Below the pieces are notes generated by a model, which saw only the letters and a list, made by a program, of their open reading frames with translations, made no database searches and was not told where the DNA came from. Position numbers and translations under genes: made by a program. Source: Crocinitomicaceae bacterium (lineage in GTDB: Bacteria > Bacteroidota > Bacteroidia > Flavobacteriales_D > Crocinitomicaceae). Taken from it: 64,000 bases of DNA. Of the stretch, positions 48,308-54,952 are shown piece after piece (the first letter of the stretch is position 1; each line of letters begins with the position of its first letter). The stretch spans positions 434,001 through 498,000 of the forward strand of contig JAJTCM010000001.1 of assembly GCA_021325675.1 (NCBI GenBank), given 5' to 3'.

Positions 48308-48706
48308 GGGGTCGTTTTTGGATTTGACAGCAAAAGCGATGATCAAGTGTAAGCATGTAGAGCGTTGGAGTGGAGCTCTTTAATATCCTGTTCCGAACAA
48401 TAATTGACAACACGTCATACGCACTTGCTGCTTAATTTGCCAAGCAAATAAGGCTTAATCCTTTCGAAGTATAGTAGATCGGACAAGTATTTCCTCCCAC
48501 GCCTCCGCCTGATAGGCAGGGATCCAGGAAATTCAAACTTTCAGGCTGGTATGCGCCCCGCTCCGTGGCAAGTACGAGATCTAAGGAGCTAAGCTGTGCA
48601 TTGGGTGTCCTTGTCCGTTGTACAGTCGAAAACTAATCAAAGACTAAACATGTAGAAGCCTTGAGAATTCTTTGTTTGGACGAGGGTTCGAACCCCTCCG
48701 ACTCCA
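48308..48706 (+). ncRNA. ssrA: transfer-messenger RNA (tmRNA)
   Basis: About 399 bases. The 5' end GGGGTCG pairs with 3' CGACTCC (one G-U) to form the acceptor stem, followed by discriminator A; CCA is not encoded. The T-arm reads GAGGGTTCGAACCCCTC. The tag frame ends TCA TAC GCA CTT GCT GCT TAA (48415-48435), giving ...SYALAA; aligned with the nine-residue GENNYALAA tags of relatives it would start at GAC (48406) as DNTSYALAA. It rescues stalled ribosomes with SmpB. A terminator follows six bases after the 3' end. Confidence 0.93.
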
Positions 48707-48711
48707 CCTTC

Positions 48712-48749
48712 GCCCTGCGTAGCTTGTAAAAGCGAAGCAGGGCTTTTTT
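48712..48749 (+). terminator. ssrA terminator
   Basis: GCCCTGC (48712-48718) ... GCAGGGC (48737-48743) then TTTTTT. Nearly the same sequence follows tRNA-Ala at 54810-54847. Confidence 0.88.
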
Positions 48750-48897
48750 GTTTAAAACGTTTATCATTCAATTTATCAACAAAGAATTTGCAGGGCTTCG
48801 GCGGACACTGTCCACTTTTAGATCTACAAATATTCACGCTCTTTCAACTTCATTTAGATTTTTCTTCTTATCTTCAGTTCAATTAATCTATCCTAAA

Positions 48898-49155
48898 ATG
48901 AAAACTGAAACCACCTCATACTGGTATGTATATCTTTTAAAATGTAGTGATCAAACGACTTATACCGGTTGTACTTCTAATCTGAAAGAACGCCTAAACC
49001 GGCATAAAAAGGGCACTGTCAGCTACACTCAAACAAGGCTGCCGGTTCAATTAATAACTTGCATTGCGTTTAATGATAAATACAAAGCATTCCACTTCGA
49101 AAAATATTTGAAATCAGGATCAGGAAAGGCATTTGCAAACAAGAGATTTCTCTAA
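48898..49155 (+). CDS. small GIY-YIG nuclease-like protein
   Basis: 85 residues from ATG 48898; an open frame further upstream has no family similarity. YWYVYLLKCSDQTTYTGCTSNLKERLNRHKKG is the UvrC/Intron-type GIY-YIG core of the short YhbQ/URI-like group. The second tyrosine motif reads YTG instead of YIG, with Arg in ERLNRH. FEKYLKSGSGKAFANK is the usual C-terminal end with the metal Glu. Activity of this group is poorly known. It stands 150 bases after the ssrA terminator and may be core or island. Confidence 0.85.
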   Translation: MKTETTSYWYVYLLKCSDQTTYTGCTSNLKERLNRHKKGTVSYTQTRLPVQLITCIAFNDKYKAFHFEKYLKSGSGKAFANKRFL

Positions 49156-49220
49156 GTTTATTCATTTTTTTCGCAAAATTCAAGATTTAACAGGTCAAAT
49201 TACCCCCTTTCCGGGACTGT

Positions 49221-49248
49221 TTTGATGTATTTTTAAATTGTAAATTTG
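49221..49248 (+). promoter_or_regulatory. possible promoter of the DUF4062 gene
   Basis: TTTG (49221-49224), 16-base spacer (short), TAAATTTG (49241-49248). It would give a leader of about 80 bases. Confidence 0.4.
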
Positions 49249-49332
49249 TGAAAAAATTTGTTTGTAAATGGGTGTGAACGATTCGGATGTGCTTCTATTT
49301 ATAAGCTAGGCACAATTTAAAACAACAAACAT

Positions 49333-50541
49333 ATGGCATTCAACGCTAGAGTATTCAGAATTTTCATTGCATCTCCTTCAGATGTTAAGGAAGAAAGAGA
49401 TGTAATTTCGAGGGTTATACAGGAATGGAATGATTTACATTCATTTGACCGAAAAGTTGTTCTTCTTCCATTAAGATGGGAAACACATTCAGCTCCAGAA
49501 TTGGGGAAGCGACCACAAGAGTTAATTAATTTAGAAATTGTGGACCATGCTGATATGGCAGTTGGCGTGTTTTGGACAAGAATAGGGACACCAACAGGAG
49601 GTTTTGACAGTGGAACCATTGAAGAAATCGACAGAATTGGCAAGGCAGATAAGTTGGTCATGTGCTACTTTTCAAAAGCTAAAGTTGAAATTGACAGCAT
49701 TGATTTGGAGCAGTATGCCAAATTGAAAGAGTTTAAAAAGAAAACATACAAAAATGGACTTGTAGAGCAATATGCCAATATTGTTGAGTTTAGAGATTTG
49801 TTTGTAAAACAACTGGAGATTAAAATCCGAACTTTAATAGCCAAAGATGGTGAAACCGGAAGTCAAGATTCAACCCCTTCAAAGCCGAGATTAGAACTTG
49901 GAATAATAGACCCAATATCGAAAGAAAATATTGGTGATAAAATAATCATAAATCCTCGGATGCTCAGTTTTACTAAATCCGATATTGAGGCTATACCTGA
50001 TTATGAAATTGAAGAAAAGAAAAAGGACTTGTTTTTTAGAGTAAATCGCGACTACTATAGACAATATGTCGAATATATTAGAGAGGAATGGGCTAAAACT
50101 CCAATTCAGTTTAGCTTATACAATCCAAGTCCAATAGCAATCAGAGACATTTTTATTGACATTCAAGTTAAGAAACTGGAGGGATTTATTATTACAAGAA
50201 AAATATCCAAAAAGCCCGAAGCTAATAGCTCAGGATTGTCAATTGACCTTGGTGAAAATTTTGAAGGCTTAATTGGGGTTAATACACTTCATGTCCAAGA
50301 AAAAGAAGACTATTATCAAATACAAATTTCATATTCTGCATTGCAACCTCAAAGAAGTATACAGTTTTCGTATCCATTTTTCATAGAAAGTTCGAAAAAG
50401 TTAGCTTTGGAATTAAATGTAAACATTTACGCGGACTGTTTTCCAAAACCATTTACAAAAGAAATGACAATAAATATTGAGCCGAATAAAATTAAGCACA
50501 CCCCAATAGAAATATTAAAGGAATTAGAAATATTTAAATAA
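49333..50541 (+). CDS. stand-alone DUF4062 protein
   Basis: 402 residues. The first 100 or so carry the DUF4062 hallmark RVFRIFIASPSDVKEERDVI, then LPLRWETHSAPELG and ADMAVGVFWTRIGTPTGGF, a fold related to TIR-like nucleotide-processing domains that is usually fused in front of NTPase or TPR modules in conflict/immunity proteins. Here a Lys-rich linker (115-170) leads to a beta-rich region (about 180-395) I do not recognise. No NTPase motif. Arg codons are mostly AGA and the gene is much richer in A/T than the core, so it is probably acquired. It faces the HNH-like gene. Confidence 0.82.
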   Translation: MAFNARVFRIFIASPSDVKEERDVISRVIQEWNDLHSFDRKVVLLPLRWETHSAPELGKRPQELINLEIVDHADMAVGVFWTRIGTPTGGFDSGTIEEIDRIGKADKLVMCYFSKAKVEIDSIDLEQYAKLKEFKKKTYKNGLVEQYANIVEFRDLFVKQLEIKIRTLIAKDGETGSQDSTPSKPRLELGIIDPISKENIGDKIIINPRMLSFTKSDIEAIPDYEIEEKKKDLFFRVNRDYYRQYVEYIREEWAKTPIQFSLYNPSPIAIRDIFIDIQVKKLEGFIITRKISKKPEANSSGLSIDLGENFEGLIGVNTLHVQEKEDYYQIQISYSALQPQRSIQFSYPFFIESSKKLALELNVNIYADCFPKPFTKEMTINIEPNKIKHTPIEILKELEIFK

Positions 50542-50713
50542 GGCAATAAAACTCTTAGACAAAATCAAACATAGTGCAATATTTTATTTGATTATTTTTT
50601 TTATTGTTTCCTGCGGATAACATAAAAAAGATTTCAAATGCTAAACATCTTTTTACGAGGATCGCCATTGCTTGATGTTTTGCTGTAAAAGTGAAAATGC
50701 AATCTAAAGGAAA

Positions 50714-51481
50714 TTAGCCCTTAATAGCAGTTTCAATTTCTTCTTTGGTTCTATAATCTAATGGTATAGGTAAATTTGTTTGTAGTCTGGCTATTTTTAA
50801 GTTTAAATCCGTTTCTTTATCAAACTCATAATTTTTAAAGTGGGTAATTTCTGCTAAATATTTAGACTGGGGATCAGAATCTATGGTCATCACATACCCA
50901 AATGGAGGAAAAGCAATTTCACAGCATTGGATTATTTCTCTGGATAAAAGATTTCCTGTTACCATATAGGGTAAATGTCTATAATTCCCTACGTTATTTA
51001 GGTAAACAAAAAATCTGTACCTATCATTCAATTCGGTAGCCCCAGTGTTTTTAATAAAAGTAATCAAGTCAGGGTGACGTTTGGCAAAATCAACCTGATT
51101 TATTGAAATGAACATCGAAACAATTTGTTTAAGTATTTTATTTGGTTTTTGCTTATATACGCTATACTCATAAATATCAAATTCTCCATGACTCAAAATG
51201 TAAGCTCCGATATGAGTCCATTCTTTAAATGACCTTACATATTCTTTACCCAAAAAATTATTACAAGATTCACAATAACTATAAAATCCAACTCCTCCTT
51301 GTTTTGGTTTACCTTTAATTTTTCTATTTAGAGGATCATCTTTCATAAAATCTTCATAGGGTATTTCACGAAACCTAGTATTTTTATTGAAAGTACTTCT
51401 TGGAGGCACGTGCTCAAAATTTAGCATTTTAATTTCATTACATAAATAACAAGTACCGTTTTTAAGTTGCCTTTTAGCCAT
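50714..51481 (-). CDS. HNH-like endonuclease-fold protein
   Basis: 255 residues from ATG 51481 (a TTG six codons upstream is in frame). CYLCNEIK (CxxC), FEHVPPRSTF, then YCESCNNFLG (second CxxC) form a zinc-stabilised HNH-type beta-beta-alpha module at residues about 10-85; the HVPPRS form is seen in proteins annotated as HNH endonuclease-like. The remaining 170 residues are unfamiliar. A/T rich with AGA-biased Arg codons, like the facing DUF4062 gene. Nuclease activity is inference. Confidence 0.65.
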   Translation of the reverse strand: MAKRQLKNGTCYLCNEIKMLNFEHVPPRSTFNKNTRFREIPYEDFMKDDPLNRKIKGKPKQGGVGFYSYCESCNNFLGKEYVRSFKEWTHIGAYILSHGEFDIYEYSVYKQKPNKILKQIVSMFISINQVDFAKRHPDLITFIKNTGATELNDRYRFFVYLNNVGNYRHLPYMVTGNLLSREIIQCCEIAFPPFGYVMTIDSDPQSKYLAEITHFKNYEFDKETDLNLKIARLQTNLPIPLDYRTKEEIETAIKG

Positions 51482-51499
51482 ATTTGATTTTAATTCCAA

Positions 51500-51532
51500 T
51501 AAAATTACGTTAAATTGATATTCAAAATCAAA
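51500..51532 (-). promoter_or_regulatory. possible promoter of the HNH-like gene
   Basis: Minus strand TTTG (51532-51529), 21-base spacer, TAATTTTA (51507-51500): one mismatch. It favours ATG 51481 as the start. Confidence 0.4.
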
Positions 51533-51661
51533 GCTGTTGATAAGAATGCAAAAGTTATAGAATTTAGTCCGAGGTGAGCAGTCCGATCCATTTTGATTTG
51601 CAATGCTTTATTATTCGGAAACTACTTTGAAAATTAATTCTCGGTATATTAGCGATAATTA

Positions 51662-51817
51662 ATGCAATCAAAACTTATGTGGACAAAAAAATACAAGTAT
51701 TGCCAATCGTGTGAATCAACATTTTTTCAACACGTTGCGAAAGGTTTATGTAAAGAATGTTATCGGATAGATAGAAAAAAACTAAAACTCAATGAGGAAT
51801 TAACTAAATTAAAGTGA
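51662..51817 (+). CDS. small zinc-ribbon protein (possibly 5' part of a broken gene)
   Basis: 51 residues. CQSC (residues 14-17) and CKEC (30-33) form a zinc-ribbon pair; the rest is strongly basic and ends in a helix (RKKLKLNEELTKLK). Its TGA is followed at +1 by a frame that continues as sensible protein (see next entry), so this may be the N-terminal part of a longer protein split by a frameshift. Part of the A/T-rich block. Confidence 0.5.
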   Translation: MQSKLMWTKKYKYCQSCESTFFQHVAKGLCKECYRIDRKKLKLNEELTKLK

Positions 51818-52130
51818 CCATGAAATAATTACTTTAAAAAGACCTTTACTACCCCATGAGTATTGGAACATTACCGAGAGAGACCAATTGATAGATATTA
51901 TTCTTAAAGAAGAAGACAAACTATACTACCTTAAATTCTATGGTATGCTTGAAAAAAGTGAATTAAATCTCGATTTATTAAAATTTGAGCTAATTTTTAA
52001 CAGAATCTCATACCAGATGAAAAAAGGCAAATATATATACACCCATAAACTAGACTCTTTATATAAATCACTTGATGAAGATCAAAGGAAGGGCGTTTTA
52101 ATGCAATTGCTAAAATTGCTTATAAAATGA
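51816..52130 (+). pseudogene. helical protein frame lacking a start codon; +1 continuation of the zinc-ribbon gene
   Basis: From GAC at 51816 the frame reads DHEIITLKRPLLPHEYWNI and on through ERDQLIDIILKEEDKLYYLK to LLKLLIK at 52130, about 104 residues with good coding character. There is no ATG or GTG between its upstream stop (51810-51812) and TTG 51888, so only a truncated start would be available. It joins the zinc-ribbon frame by a single +1 step at AAG-TGA-C. Either a mutated gene, a sequencing slip, or recoding. Confidence 0.45.
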
Positions 52131-52287
52131 AAATGTGGGAAAGAACTTGATTTTACTGGCCCAATTGGCTATCAAAACTGAAAACTTGGTTTTCCGAGTT
52201 TAAGAAGAAGTAGCTAACGTTCCTATTAAAATTTTAGAAATGCATCCTCAAATTAGCGTTTCGGAGTTCGACCGAAGTTGCGCCCGC

Positions 52288-52343
52288 TCCACAACGAAAG
52301 CAGAAAAGTCAGCCAGCAGGCTGGCTTTTTTCGCTTTGTTGTG
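52288..52343. repeat. nested inverted repeat
   Basis: CCACAACGAAAGC (52288-52300) pairs with GCTTTGTTGTGG (52332-52343) apart from one bulged G, enclosing a terminator hairpin at 52310-52330. It lies in the 407-base gap between the frame-broken gene and the VOC gene. The rest of that gap holds CTTCGT/ACGAAG at about 52484-52503 and no gene. Confidence 0.65.
52310..52330 (+). terminator. hairpin terminator
   Basis: AGCCAG-CAGG-CTGGCT then TTTTT. It lies 180 bases after the last open frame of the A/T-rich block, just after a CGCCCGCTCCA stretch that resembles a tRNA 3' end. Confidence 0.6.
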
Positions 52344-52537
52344 GTCCGTAGCGACTGACGCAGGAAGTCTGCTACAAGGTTTTATCCTAAAATAGAATTT
52401 AAATTAATCTAAATTTGAGTTCGGGTCCATTTTTCTTTCCGATTTTTATAATCCCGCAGATGCATTCTTAATTTCATTCTTAAACTTCGTAGCTTGAACG
52501 AAGAAGTTTCGTATCTTGCATTTAAAAACAATCAACT

Positions 52538-53458
52538 ATGACCAGACAACTTCCTTTAATTTCCCATGGGCTTTGGTTGGATAACCAGGCAGAAGAAGCC
52601 GTACAGTTTTACAAGTCCGTTTTTCCTGATTTTAAAATCCATTCAACTGCTTACTACGGCAAGGAAGGCTTTGAGCAGCACAAGCGTCCTGAAGGCAGTG
52701 TGATGGTGATCAACTTCGAAATTTTCGGTACGGAATTCCAGGTGATCAATGGCGGGCCGGTGTTTAAAATGAACCCTTCGGTTTCATATTTTATCCTGTG
52801 TGACAGTGACCGGGAAGCCGAAAATTTCTGGAACCTCCTGGTGGATGGCGGTAAAATCCTCATGCCGATCGATAAATATGAATGGAGTGAGCGCTACGGC
52901 TGGCTGCAGGATAAATACGGACTTTCCTGGCAAATTTATACCGGCGCACCGAATGACGTGAACCAGAAAATCTGCGCTTCACTGATGTTTACCGGCGAGC
53001 AGCACGGCAGGGCAGAGGAAGCCATCGATTTTTACACGTCGATCTTCAAAAATTCCGAAATCCAGGGAATCATGCGTTACCCGGCCGGTGGCATGGATCC
53101 CGAAGGAACAGTCATGCATTCGCAGTTTAAGCTTGGCGATCATGTTTTTATGGCCATGGATAGCGCTATGGAGCACAATTTCCAGTTCAACGAAGCGCTT
53201 TCTTTTATTGTTAATTGCCGCACACAGGAGGAAATCGATTATTACTGGACGAAATTGCTCGACGGCGGTCACCCCCAGGAATGCGGCTGGCTCAAAGACA
53301 AGTTCGGAATTTCCTGGCAAGTAGTTCCTGTGCAGCTGGAGGCGATGCTTCTCGACGAAGACAAGTGGCGTGTTGCCCGGGTAATGAAAGCTTTCTTCCA
53401 GATGAAAAAATTCGATATTCAGGCGTTGGAAAAAGCGTTTTTAGGAAATGATGAGTGA
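52538..53458 (+). CDS. double VOC-domain protein (PhnB-like)
   Basis: 306 residues with two tandem PhnB/3-demethylubiquinone methyltransferase-like VOC domains (about 1-135 and 145-285). Each has W/FYKSVFP or FYTSIFKNS, GTEFQVINGGP or GDHVFMAMDS, and YGWLQDKYGLSWQI or CGWLKDKFGISWQV. Catalysis cannot be predicted; many relatives are orphan. Base composition is back to core type. Confidence 0.88.
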   Translation: MTRQLPLISHGLWLDNQAEEAVQFYKSVFPDFKIHSTAYYGKEGFEQHKRPEGSVMVINFEIFGTEFQVINGGPVFKMNPSVSYFILCDSDREAENFWNLLVDGGKILMPIDKYEWSERYGWLQDKYGLSWQIYTGAPNDVNQKICASLMFTGEQHGRAEEAIDFYTSIFKNSEIQGIMRYPAGGMDPEGTVMHSQFKLGDHVFMAMDSAMEHNFQFNEALSFIVNCRTQEEIDYYWTKLLDGGHPQECGWLKDKFGISWQVVPVQLEAMLLDEDKWRVARVMKAFFQMKKFDIQALEKAFLGNDE

Positions 53459-54804: not shown

Positions 54805-54809
54805 CTTTC

Positions 54810-54847
54810 GCCCTGCGGAACTTATAAAAGTGAAGCAGGGCTTTTTT
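54810..54847 (+). terminator. tRNA-Ala terminator
   Basis: GCCCTGC ... GCAGGGC then TTTTTT; a near copy of the ssrA terminator at 48712-48749. Confidence 0.88.
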
Positions 54848-54952
54848 ATTCAAAATTAGTTCAATTATGATTTTACTTAAGCCAGCGGGCTTTGGTGGAT
54901 GCGATCCACTAGTCATAACGAACAAACAATATTCCCGGCATCAAATTATTTA

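Follow-up and report, generated by a model that had tools for sequence, protein, structure and literature searches.

What brings A/T-rich DNA with foreign-looking genes to the 3' end of a transfer-messenger RNA (tmRNA) gene, with no integrase among these genes? The question is raised by a 64,000-nt stretch of the genome of a Crocinitomicaceae bacterium (3.57 Mb in 12 contigs), hereafter the window (G000:C1:434001-498000), in which the tmRNA gene ssrA is followed by an A/T-rich block that precedes a gene of the VOC family (Table 1). Of all the sites at which mobile DNA lands, the 3' ends of stable-RNA genes are the best known, and integrases have so far been the explanation. A first-pass annotation of the window had proposed that the block may be an acquired conflict module composed of a DUF4062 gene, a facing HNH-like gene and a zinc-ribbon gene. 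It overlooked what really marks this 3' end as a target, a small stand-alone gene for a GIY-YIG endonuclease, which is the first gene behind ssrA. Based on the analyses described below, we regard it as fairly probable that the locus is composite, with a minimal mobile GIY-YIG unit at the ssrA end, a separately acquired A/T-rich stretch carrying a putative defence effector, and an old ssrA flank that has been displaced.

The GIY-YIG protein of the window scores 50.3 bits on PF01541 (curated cut-off 22.6). Residues Y12, Y22, R32, H36 and E68 are invariant in all 16 rows of its alignment, and we take this Tyr pair, Arg, His and Glu to be the catalytic residues, with the roles known from I-TevI-type enzymes. 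When the subfamily profile was compared with solved structures, UPF0213 gave the best matches (top E 4e-14). Using a profile built from 14 relatives (threshold E up to 1e-20), we detected the subfamily in 33 of the 395 class genomes and in 29 of 196 genera, a patchy distribution whose tally of 33 includes the window's own genome. Six pairs of copies from congeners were compared; the ratio of non-synonymous to synonymous substitution rates (dN/dS) is 0.03-0.15 for five, and dS is not computable for the sixth. These values indicate that the gene is under purifying selection. No relatives in viral contigs were confirmed.

The relatives of this gene are closely linked to stable-RNA genes. In 33 of 41 loci (40 re-fetched and the window), ARAGORN detects a same-strand tRNA or tmRNA gene ahead of the GIY-YIG match, at a distance of 66-613 nt, namely 21 tmRNA, 5 tRNA-Ser, 4 tRNA-Asp and 3 tRNA-Ala genes. 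With ~40 RNA genes per genome, we estimate the chance of a GIY-YIG gene lying so close behind one of them to be well below 1%. Among the eight unlinked loci, L155 begins close to the edge of its contig, and contig ends cut the ssrA ends contained in L187 and L192. Part of an RNA 3' end is recognizable by eye in four more (L167, L173, L186 and L191), and only L189 shows no such sign. The count leaves aside L066 (a partial tRNA-Asp-like end, by eye), L068, L139 and L147 (contig edges), the truncated L078, L151 (tRNA-Ser upstream), L153 (ssrA cut by a contig end), further copies in G199, G346, G267 and G204, and a frame of 671 amino acids (aa) in G004. For other GIY-YIG hits, an RNA gene was present in none of the 13 fetched loci (L077, a 671-aa frame, and L079-L090; mostly 1.5 kb on each side, only 76 nt upstream for L083).

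The junction can also be recognized without the gene. A 22-base junction pattern, which itself includes the RNA end CTCCRC, yielded 23 matches in 19 of the 395 genomes, and its reversed control yielded none. Eighteen of the matches abut an RNA gene; in the window, the match is placed at 48702-48723, with the RNA end CTCCAC (48702-48707) as the left junction. The other five abut no ARAGORN gene. The match of L257, within what seems to be coding sequence, is due to chance. A GIY-YIG match is missing from eight of the 23 loci: three with full flanks, all behind tRNA-Ala (L247, L251 and L267), four near contig ends, and L257.

The genome of the window contains five GIY-YIG matches. Two are inside long frames (599 and 478 aa), and the other three directly follow same-strand RNA genes, namely ssrA, tRNA-Phe and tRNA-Asn. 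The genes behind the two tRNAs belong to other subfamilies and are 28-29% identical to that of the window. Both are stand-alone genes (L056, G000:C8:25433-25767, behind tRNA-Phe; L059, G000:C6:86601-86952, behind tRNA-Asn), with the match ~50-70 nt past the tRNA and a terminator-like stretch in between. Elsewhere in this genome, a nearly identical leader (AACAGAAAGAGAAACAG...TTTCTCTTTTTTGTTTTA) is found behind two tRNAs (L105 and L119), followed by a GIY-YIG match behind one only, and in two further tRNA flanks (L112 and L121) the 3' end of the tRNA recurs in part shortly after the tRNA, the copy of L121 including the terminator.

Between the RNA gene and the GIY-YIG gene, the units share a characteristic organization. 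A leader beginning with CTTCGC, CTACGC or CTCCGC directly at the RNA end is found in 27 of the 33 linked loci, usually with a hairpin next. In the window this hairpin is followed by a T run and is likely to be a replacement terminator for ssrA. A second palindrome, often located before the gene, is exact in 14 of the 33 loci, and in 13 of those its arm corresponds to the last five bases of the unit's own RNA gene: TCCAC behind tmRNA and tRNA-Ala, TCCGC behind tRNA-Ser and ACCGC behind tRNA-Asp, the exception being L184. In the window, TCCAC from the end of the RNA recurs in the 3' arm, and the other arm is mismatched. The window also harbours a copy of the leader and second palindrome with no GIY-YIG gene, behind tRNA-Ala(GGC), which is the only tRNA of this genome ending in TCCAC among the 30 (of 33) flanks viewed.

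Complete elements were identified at two loci. The first (L161, behind tRNA-Ser in G405) is 336 bp long and enclosed by 20-base direct repeats of the tRNA end; the second (L169, behind tRNA-Ser in G253, from another family) is 385 bp long and similarly enclosed by 20-base direct repeats. At the right end of both, the leader hairpin recurs in inverted orientation (alignment score 16, with control maxima of 10 and 11 in 40 controls each), and GIY-YIG is the sole gene between the ends. Altogether, 4 of the 33 loci have copies of the RNA end matching at 18-20 of 20 bases, 34-65 nt past the GIY-YIG stop codon. In a 700-nt search, repeats of at least 16/20 bases occur in none of 598 controls, which are comparisons with loci of other RNA types.

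Some units occur in series. In L130, L131, L143 and L154, the GIY-YIG gene is separated from the tmRNA by tandem arrays of the leader/palindrome unit. Behind ssrA in L212, L229, L215, L021 and L036 there is another type of unit, which is non-coding (TCTGAT...hairpin...ATCCAYTGCACGTT...). The 3' end of ssrA is copied, in whole or in part, at the end of this unit, which looks as though it grows in tandem.

Occupied and unoccupied sites coexist at short evolutionary range. In the genus of G065, 31 of 41 genomes were matched and 27 ssrA loci compared, partial matches at contig ends being left out. The GIY-YIG unit is present at four of them, and of the 23 loci without it three are cut by contig ends (L221, L224 and L230 are cut within 112 nt; the GIY-YIG match of L212/L239 is partial). 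G514 is filled, with a partial GIY-YIG match, behind a repeated ssrA end, and G360 has other DNA at the same repeat. Such comparisons concern left junctions only, and no clean filled/empty pair with both junctions was found. Three genomes (G007, G303 and G445) have copies at two different RNA genes each. On the best tree, which comprises 30 rows and leaves out L162, L163 and L177 because of internal stops, the target changes eight times (minimum 3; average 10.5 with shuffled labels), and a tmRNA unit (L179) and a tRNA-Ala unit (L180) form a sister pair with support 92/82.

These features suggest how the unit might spread. The GIY-YIG nuclease would cut the 3' ends of stable-RNA genes (tmRNA, tRNA-Ser, tRNA-Ala and tRNA-Asp), and repair or recombination would deposit a copy of the unit at the cut end. 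We propose that the RNA gene stays whole because the insertion occurs exactly at its end and the unit supplies a terminator. The copied RNA 3' end would provide a new landing place, giving rise to tandem arrays and gene-less copies. The units may represent a novel class of mobile elements, of less than 0.4 kb when complete, that insert at exact tmRNA or tRNA 3' ends across a bacterial class, consist of one GIY-YIG gene between two inverted hairpins at the termini, restore the terminator, contain a target-derived palindrome and recreate the landing site, with gene-less copies mobilized in trans; on this proposal our judgement is evenly divided. The A/T-rich stretch behind the unit would have arrived separately, bringing, besides its HNH-like and zinc-ribbon companions, a DUF4062 protein that would deplete NAD+ upon phage infection in a Swarozyc-like abortive infection, with its C-terminal beta domain as the putative sensor.

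The composition of this stretch bears out what the first-pass annotation had claimed for the interval between ssrA and the VOC gene. The G+C content (GC) falls from ~0.45 to 0.28-0.37 across roughly 48750-52250, and is back at 0.45 from 52500. Gene by gene, GC is 0.36 for GIY-YIG, 0.34 for DUF4062, 0.30 for the HNH-like gene and 0.29 for the zinc-ribbon gene, compared with a mean of 0.464 (sd 0.020, minimum 0.395) for the 28 ATG-started open reading frames (ORFs) of at least 300 aa outside the block. The announced switch of Arg codons to AGA is equally clear, with 14 of 20 in the DUF4062 gene and 7 of 13 in the HNH-like gene versus 36 of 550 outside the block. Composition is thus non-core-like, and as the DUF4062 gene is found in none of four congeners, the block (48708-52286) looks acquired. 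A promoter scan gave fewer hits than shuffles (13 versus 15.8). As first reported, there is no integrase among the five frames of the block (four family libraries) and no exact repeat of the ssrA 3' end, the best direct repeat within 5 kb behind the GIY-YIG gene (12/20) being at control level. Entry of the integrase type, to which the first-pass annotation had alluded, thus finds neither its enzyme nor att repeats for the block.

The right edge of the block is informative as to its arrival. The closing hairpin noted around 52310 is present, with a stem at 52289-52344. In G014, a genome of the same family, the counterpart of 52287-52375 is found directly behind ssrA (83% identity over 94 columns, including CTCCAC), and this locus behaves as the empty site that a comparison with relatives had been suggested to reveal. 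Judging from this alignment, the hairpin at 52287 is probably an earlier ssrA flank that was pushed away by 48708-52286. A related right-edge sequence is also found behind tRNA-Arg in the window's own genome. We considered the CTCCAC at 52287 as a direct repeat of the ssrA end and set this aside, as alone it is not above chance and the G014 alignment is its only support. No tblastn match to the flanking S46 peptidase, SnoaL, VOC and MscS genes was obtained near ssrA in the fetched congener loci; VOC matches the own genome only, except for a weak 48-residue match in G003, and a right-hand synteny anchor is thus lacking.

We also rejected the idea that A/T-rich cargo is general behind GIY-YIG units. 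In 39 other loci, GC drops by more than 0.06 in two and rises by more than 0.06 in two, and it averages 0.403 behind the units and 0.415 further on, a small though nominally significant difference (p 0.018). Two arrivals are favoured over one because other GIY-YIG units have no such cargo and because a sequence of ~80 bp between the GIY-YIG and DUF4062 genes is shared with other sites of the genome. This sequence (TTTCGCAAAATTC...AAATTACCCC-TTTCCGGG) is present at five intergenic places (the window, L004, L005, L006 and L007), in four of which a gene follows; by eye, the products are of the DUF4062 type, DUF2235-like, a membrane protein and a histidine kinase. It may be a regulatory site or a small repeat. 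Thus, the DUF4062 gene was probably acquired separately from the GIY-YIG unit.

The DUF4062-type protein has three full-length relatives, 42-50% identical, in Rufibacter, a Paludibacter metagenome-assembled genome and an IMG/VR contig (L270:4001-5215, 42% identical), the last one adjoining a repressor-like gene. Beyond the four congeners, 4 of 98 other relatives have matches, which cover the N-terminal half only. The N-domain (residues 1-165) is 48.5% identical to Synechococcus plasmid proteins annotated as DUF4062. Residues 6-180 match PADLOC PDC-S60 (E 1.3e-28) at model positions 3-182 of 906 only, so that the N-terminal 175 residues are alike and a full-length match is not reached. PF13271 is matched by each of the four proteins, that of the window and the three relatives, with E values up to 0.1 (E 2e-8 for one relative), and the SGTxEE motif (E97, E98) is invariant in the four proteins.

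In a 2026 preprint (PMC13174449), DUF4062 is described as a TIR-like NADase family whose bacterial members defend their hosts by depleting NAD+, and E97 is given as the active-site residue of the Klebsiella protein KpSwz. Judging from motif and residue number, E97 of the window protein would be the equivalent residue. In common with Swarozyc, the window protein has a DUF4062 N-domain, Glu 97 by motif, an accessory C-terminal domain and a patchy spread. A structural model of the protein has DNPH1 as its best match over residues 4-173 (Z 12.1, 2.6 Å, 130 residues), with an unrelated dehydrogenase at Z 11.5. A list led by DNPH1 fits the TIR/NDT kinship described in PMC13174449, with unrelated folds scoring close. 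Matches of a first model, built from three sequences (predicted local distance difference test, pLDDT, 59.9), were set aside, as was the Foldseek list for the second model, led by unrelated folds; the search of the sequence against the PDB returned nothing credible. Altogether, the protein is most likely a TIR-like NADase acting as a Swarozyc-like anti-phage effector, and hence a further member of a known family.

The other genes of the block are less telling. The HNH-like protein misses the Pfam gathering score for HNH_5 (16.5 versus 27.5 bits). Its relatives are rare, with 4 in 394 other class genomes and 9 plasmid records, and for two of them a recombination gene is less than 2 kb away, identified by eye as a serine recombinase in L201 and a tyrosine integrase in L203; none were confirmed in viral contigs. 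The zinc-ribbon protein shows a weak match to the HNH family phrog_20467 (E 0.0016). Its gene ends with AAG TGA (stop codon at 51815-51817), and at this point (51815-51830) an open frame continues in +1, so that a frameshift or a broken gene is possible. The ensuing frame (51813-52130) has no ATG ahead of a TTG at 51888. We rejected it as a conserved protein or frameshift product, since three of its four weak relatives are nuoK-like NADH-dehydrogenase ORFs by eye and hence chance matches.

Table 1. Features of the window around the ssrA 3' end (positions in the window).
Feature	Position	Strand	Basis or remarks
ssrA (tmRNA)	48308..48708	+	ARAGORN; tag DNTSYALAA
GIY-YIG unit leader CTTCGCCCTGCGTAGC...GCGAAGCAGGGCTTTTTT, hairpin	48708..48749	+	stem 48712-48743, T run; fold z -3.8
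Second palindrome GGGCTTCGGCGGACACTGTCCAC	48793..48815	+	sequence
GIY-YIG endonuclease, 85 aa	48898..49155	+	PF01541 E 3e-13; alignments A1, A2
Dispersed sequence of ~80 bp	49167..49249	+	before the DUF4062 gene; four other own-genome intergenic sites
DUF4062-type protein, 402 aa	49333..50541	+	N-domain with SGTIE97E98I, C-terminal beta domain
HNH_5-like protein, 255 aa	50714..51481	-	CxxC...FEHVPP...CxxCN; sub-threshold PF14279
Small basic zinc-ribbon-like protein, 51 aa	51662..51817	+	sequence; two CxxC pairs
ORFan open frame, coding status unsure	51813..52130	+	+1 relative to the zinc-ribbon gene
Right edge: CTCCAC, long hairpin and repeat	52287..52375	+	stem 52289-52344, z -6.7
VOC gene	52538-53458		
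Leader and second palindrome copy (GGTGGATGCGATCCAC), no GIY-YIG gene	54806..54909	+	behind tRNA-Ala(GGC)

A number of observations weigh against the composite reading. Neither movement nor cutting by the GIY-YIG unit has been observed, and both are deduced from sequence comparisons. Of the 33 genomes tallied out of 395, at least one (G004) is counted for a frame of 671 aa and not for a stand-alone gene, and two loci, L189 and the truncated L078, have no upstream RNA gene. The second palindrome of the window has a mismatch and folds no better than shuffles; no exact second palindrome is found in 19 of the 33 linked loci, and the 13/14 agreement between palindrome and target contains only three loci with an arm other than TCCAC. 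Strong direct repeats are missing from 29 of the 33 loci, including that of the window. At 15/20 bases in the 700-nt search, 5 of 33 loci have repeats versus 13 of 598 controls, and with at least 16/20 bases in a 5-kb search the figures are 4 of 33 versus 6 of 598; moreover, the repeats of L160 and L183 resemble the end of the different, non-coding tandem unit. The tree is poorly resolved, and when only well-supported branches are considered, a single change per target type is required. The argument on the right edge comes from one relative (G014), and as the hairpin type is also present behind a tRNA, it could have arrived independently. As for the DUF4062 protein, alone it scores 16.4 bits on Pfam, below the cut-off of 24.7. 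Its model was built from four sequences and has a mean pLDDT of 68.5; plant TIR domains (Z 9.6) are not above GTPases (9.9-10.1) among its matches, and unrelated chains are less than 1 Z from the best.

Could the units be explained without mobility of their own? The 3' sides of ssrA and tRNA genes might be ordinary hot spots for integrase islands, whose classic targets they are, and the GIY-YIG gene a passenger of decayed islands. Repeats of the ssrA end with no GIY-YIG gene do exist (L046, L222 and L229). Nevertheless, the gene comes with a fixed leader at the RNA end (27/33) and a palindrome matched to its target (13 of 14 exact ones), the elements of 336 and 385 bp have no room for another gene, and no RNA gene is seen with the 13 other GIY-YIG hits scanned (L077 and L079-L090), which makes this explanation improbable. 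Alternatively, the nuclease and palindromes could represent a domesticated host device for the 3' processing of tRNA and tmRNA or for termination, in keeping with the purifying selection on the gene and with the leader of the window folding as a terminator. We consider this very unlikely in view of the presence of the unit at only 4 of 27 loci within a genus, the different target genes of the sister pair L179/L180, the copies with internal stops (L162, L163 and L177), and the tandem and gene-less copies.

Other explanations concern the block as a whole. The segment 48708-52286 might be a single island that arrived in one event, with GIY-YIG as its mobility gene and the DUF4062, HNH-like and zinc-ribbon genes as cargo. 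Both of its edges are at CTCCAC, the G014 junction fits, and all its genes are A/T-rich; yet GC drops by more than 0.06 behind only 2 of 39 other GIY-YIG units, the sequence between GIY-YIG and DUF4062 is shared with four other chromosomal intergenic places, and there is no significant right-hand repeat. A single event is therefore unlikely. That DUF4062, HNH-like and zinc-ribbon proteins would form one functional conflict system, combining an effector and a nuclease, is quite doubtful as well. The genes are adjacent and equally A/T-rich, HNH relatives are near a serine recombinase and a tyrosine integrase, and the IMG/VR relative of DUF4062 is next to a repressor-like gene. Nevertheless, the DUF4062 and HNH-like genes face each other, and the pair, for which a search in other genomes had been recommended, was found together neither in a comparison of seven loci, four for HNH and three for DUF4062, nor in the fetched ssrA loci of congeners and relatives. 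Of the acquired conflict module proposed by the first-pass annotation, the acquired look, the ssrA 3' end as the site and a likely anti-phage role of DUF4062 are retained, while its coherence as one module is not.

A composite locus thus remains our preferred reading, and its GIY-YIG unit can be compared with known systems. In common with GIY-YIG homing endonucleases and UPF0213 proteins, it has the GIY-YIG domain with its residues, a small stand-alone gene, a patchy distribution and purifying selection. Unlike them, it is located at stable-RNA 3' ends, has its own palindromic leader and several RNA targets, and includes two copies with 20-nt direct repeats and inverted ends. The unit also resembles the repetitive extragenic palindromic (REP) sequences and bacterial interspersed mosaic elements (BIMEs) with their REP-associated tyrosine transposases (RAYTs), in that a single-gene enzyme is tied to palindromic units, with gene-less copies elsewhere; REPs are mobilized in trans by RAYTs. 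It differs from them by its enzyme, which is GIY-YIG rather than a Y1 HUH transposase, its location at RNA 3' ends and its target-matched unit. With the integrase islands of ssrA and tRNA 3' ends, it shares the target, the partial copies of RNA ends and the intact RNA gene, but there is no integrase in the block of the window, and the complete elements have fewer than 400 bp and only a GIY-YIG gene. No GIY-YIG units at tRNA or tmRNA ends or with palindromic repeats were found in titles and opening parts of abstracts of the open-access literature. We see the unit as akin to nuclease-bearing selfish elements, and whether it deserves a class of its own is for us an even call.

If our interpretation is correct, such a nuclease-only unit, with less than 400 bp, would rank with the smallest mobile elements that are autonomous, and it would represent another source of the repeated RNA-end fragments around tRNA genes. 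The cargo of the window adds a phage-defence candidate, belonging to a family for which the 2026 preprint (PMC13174449) reports NADase activity.

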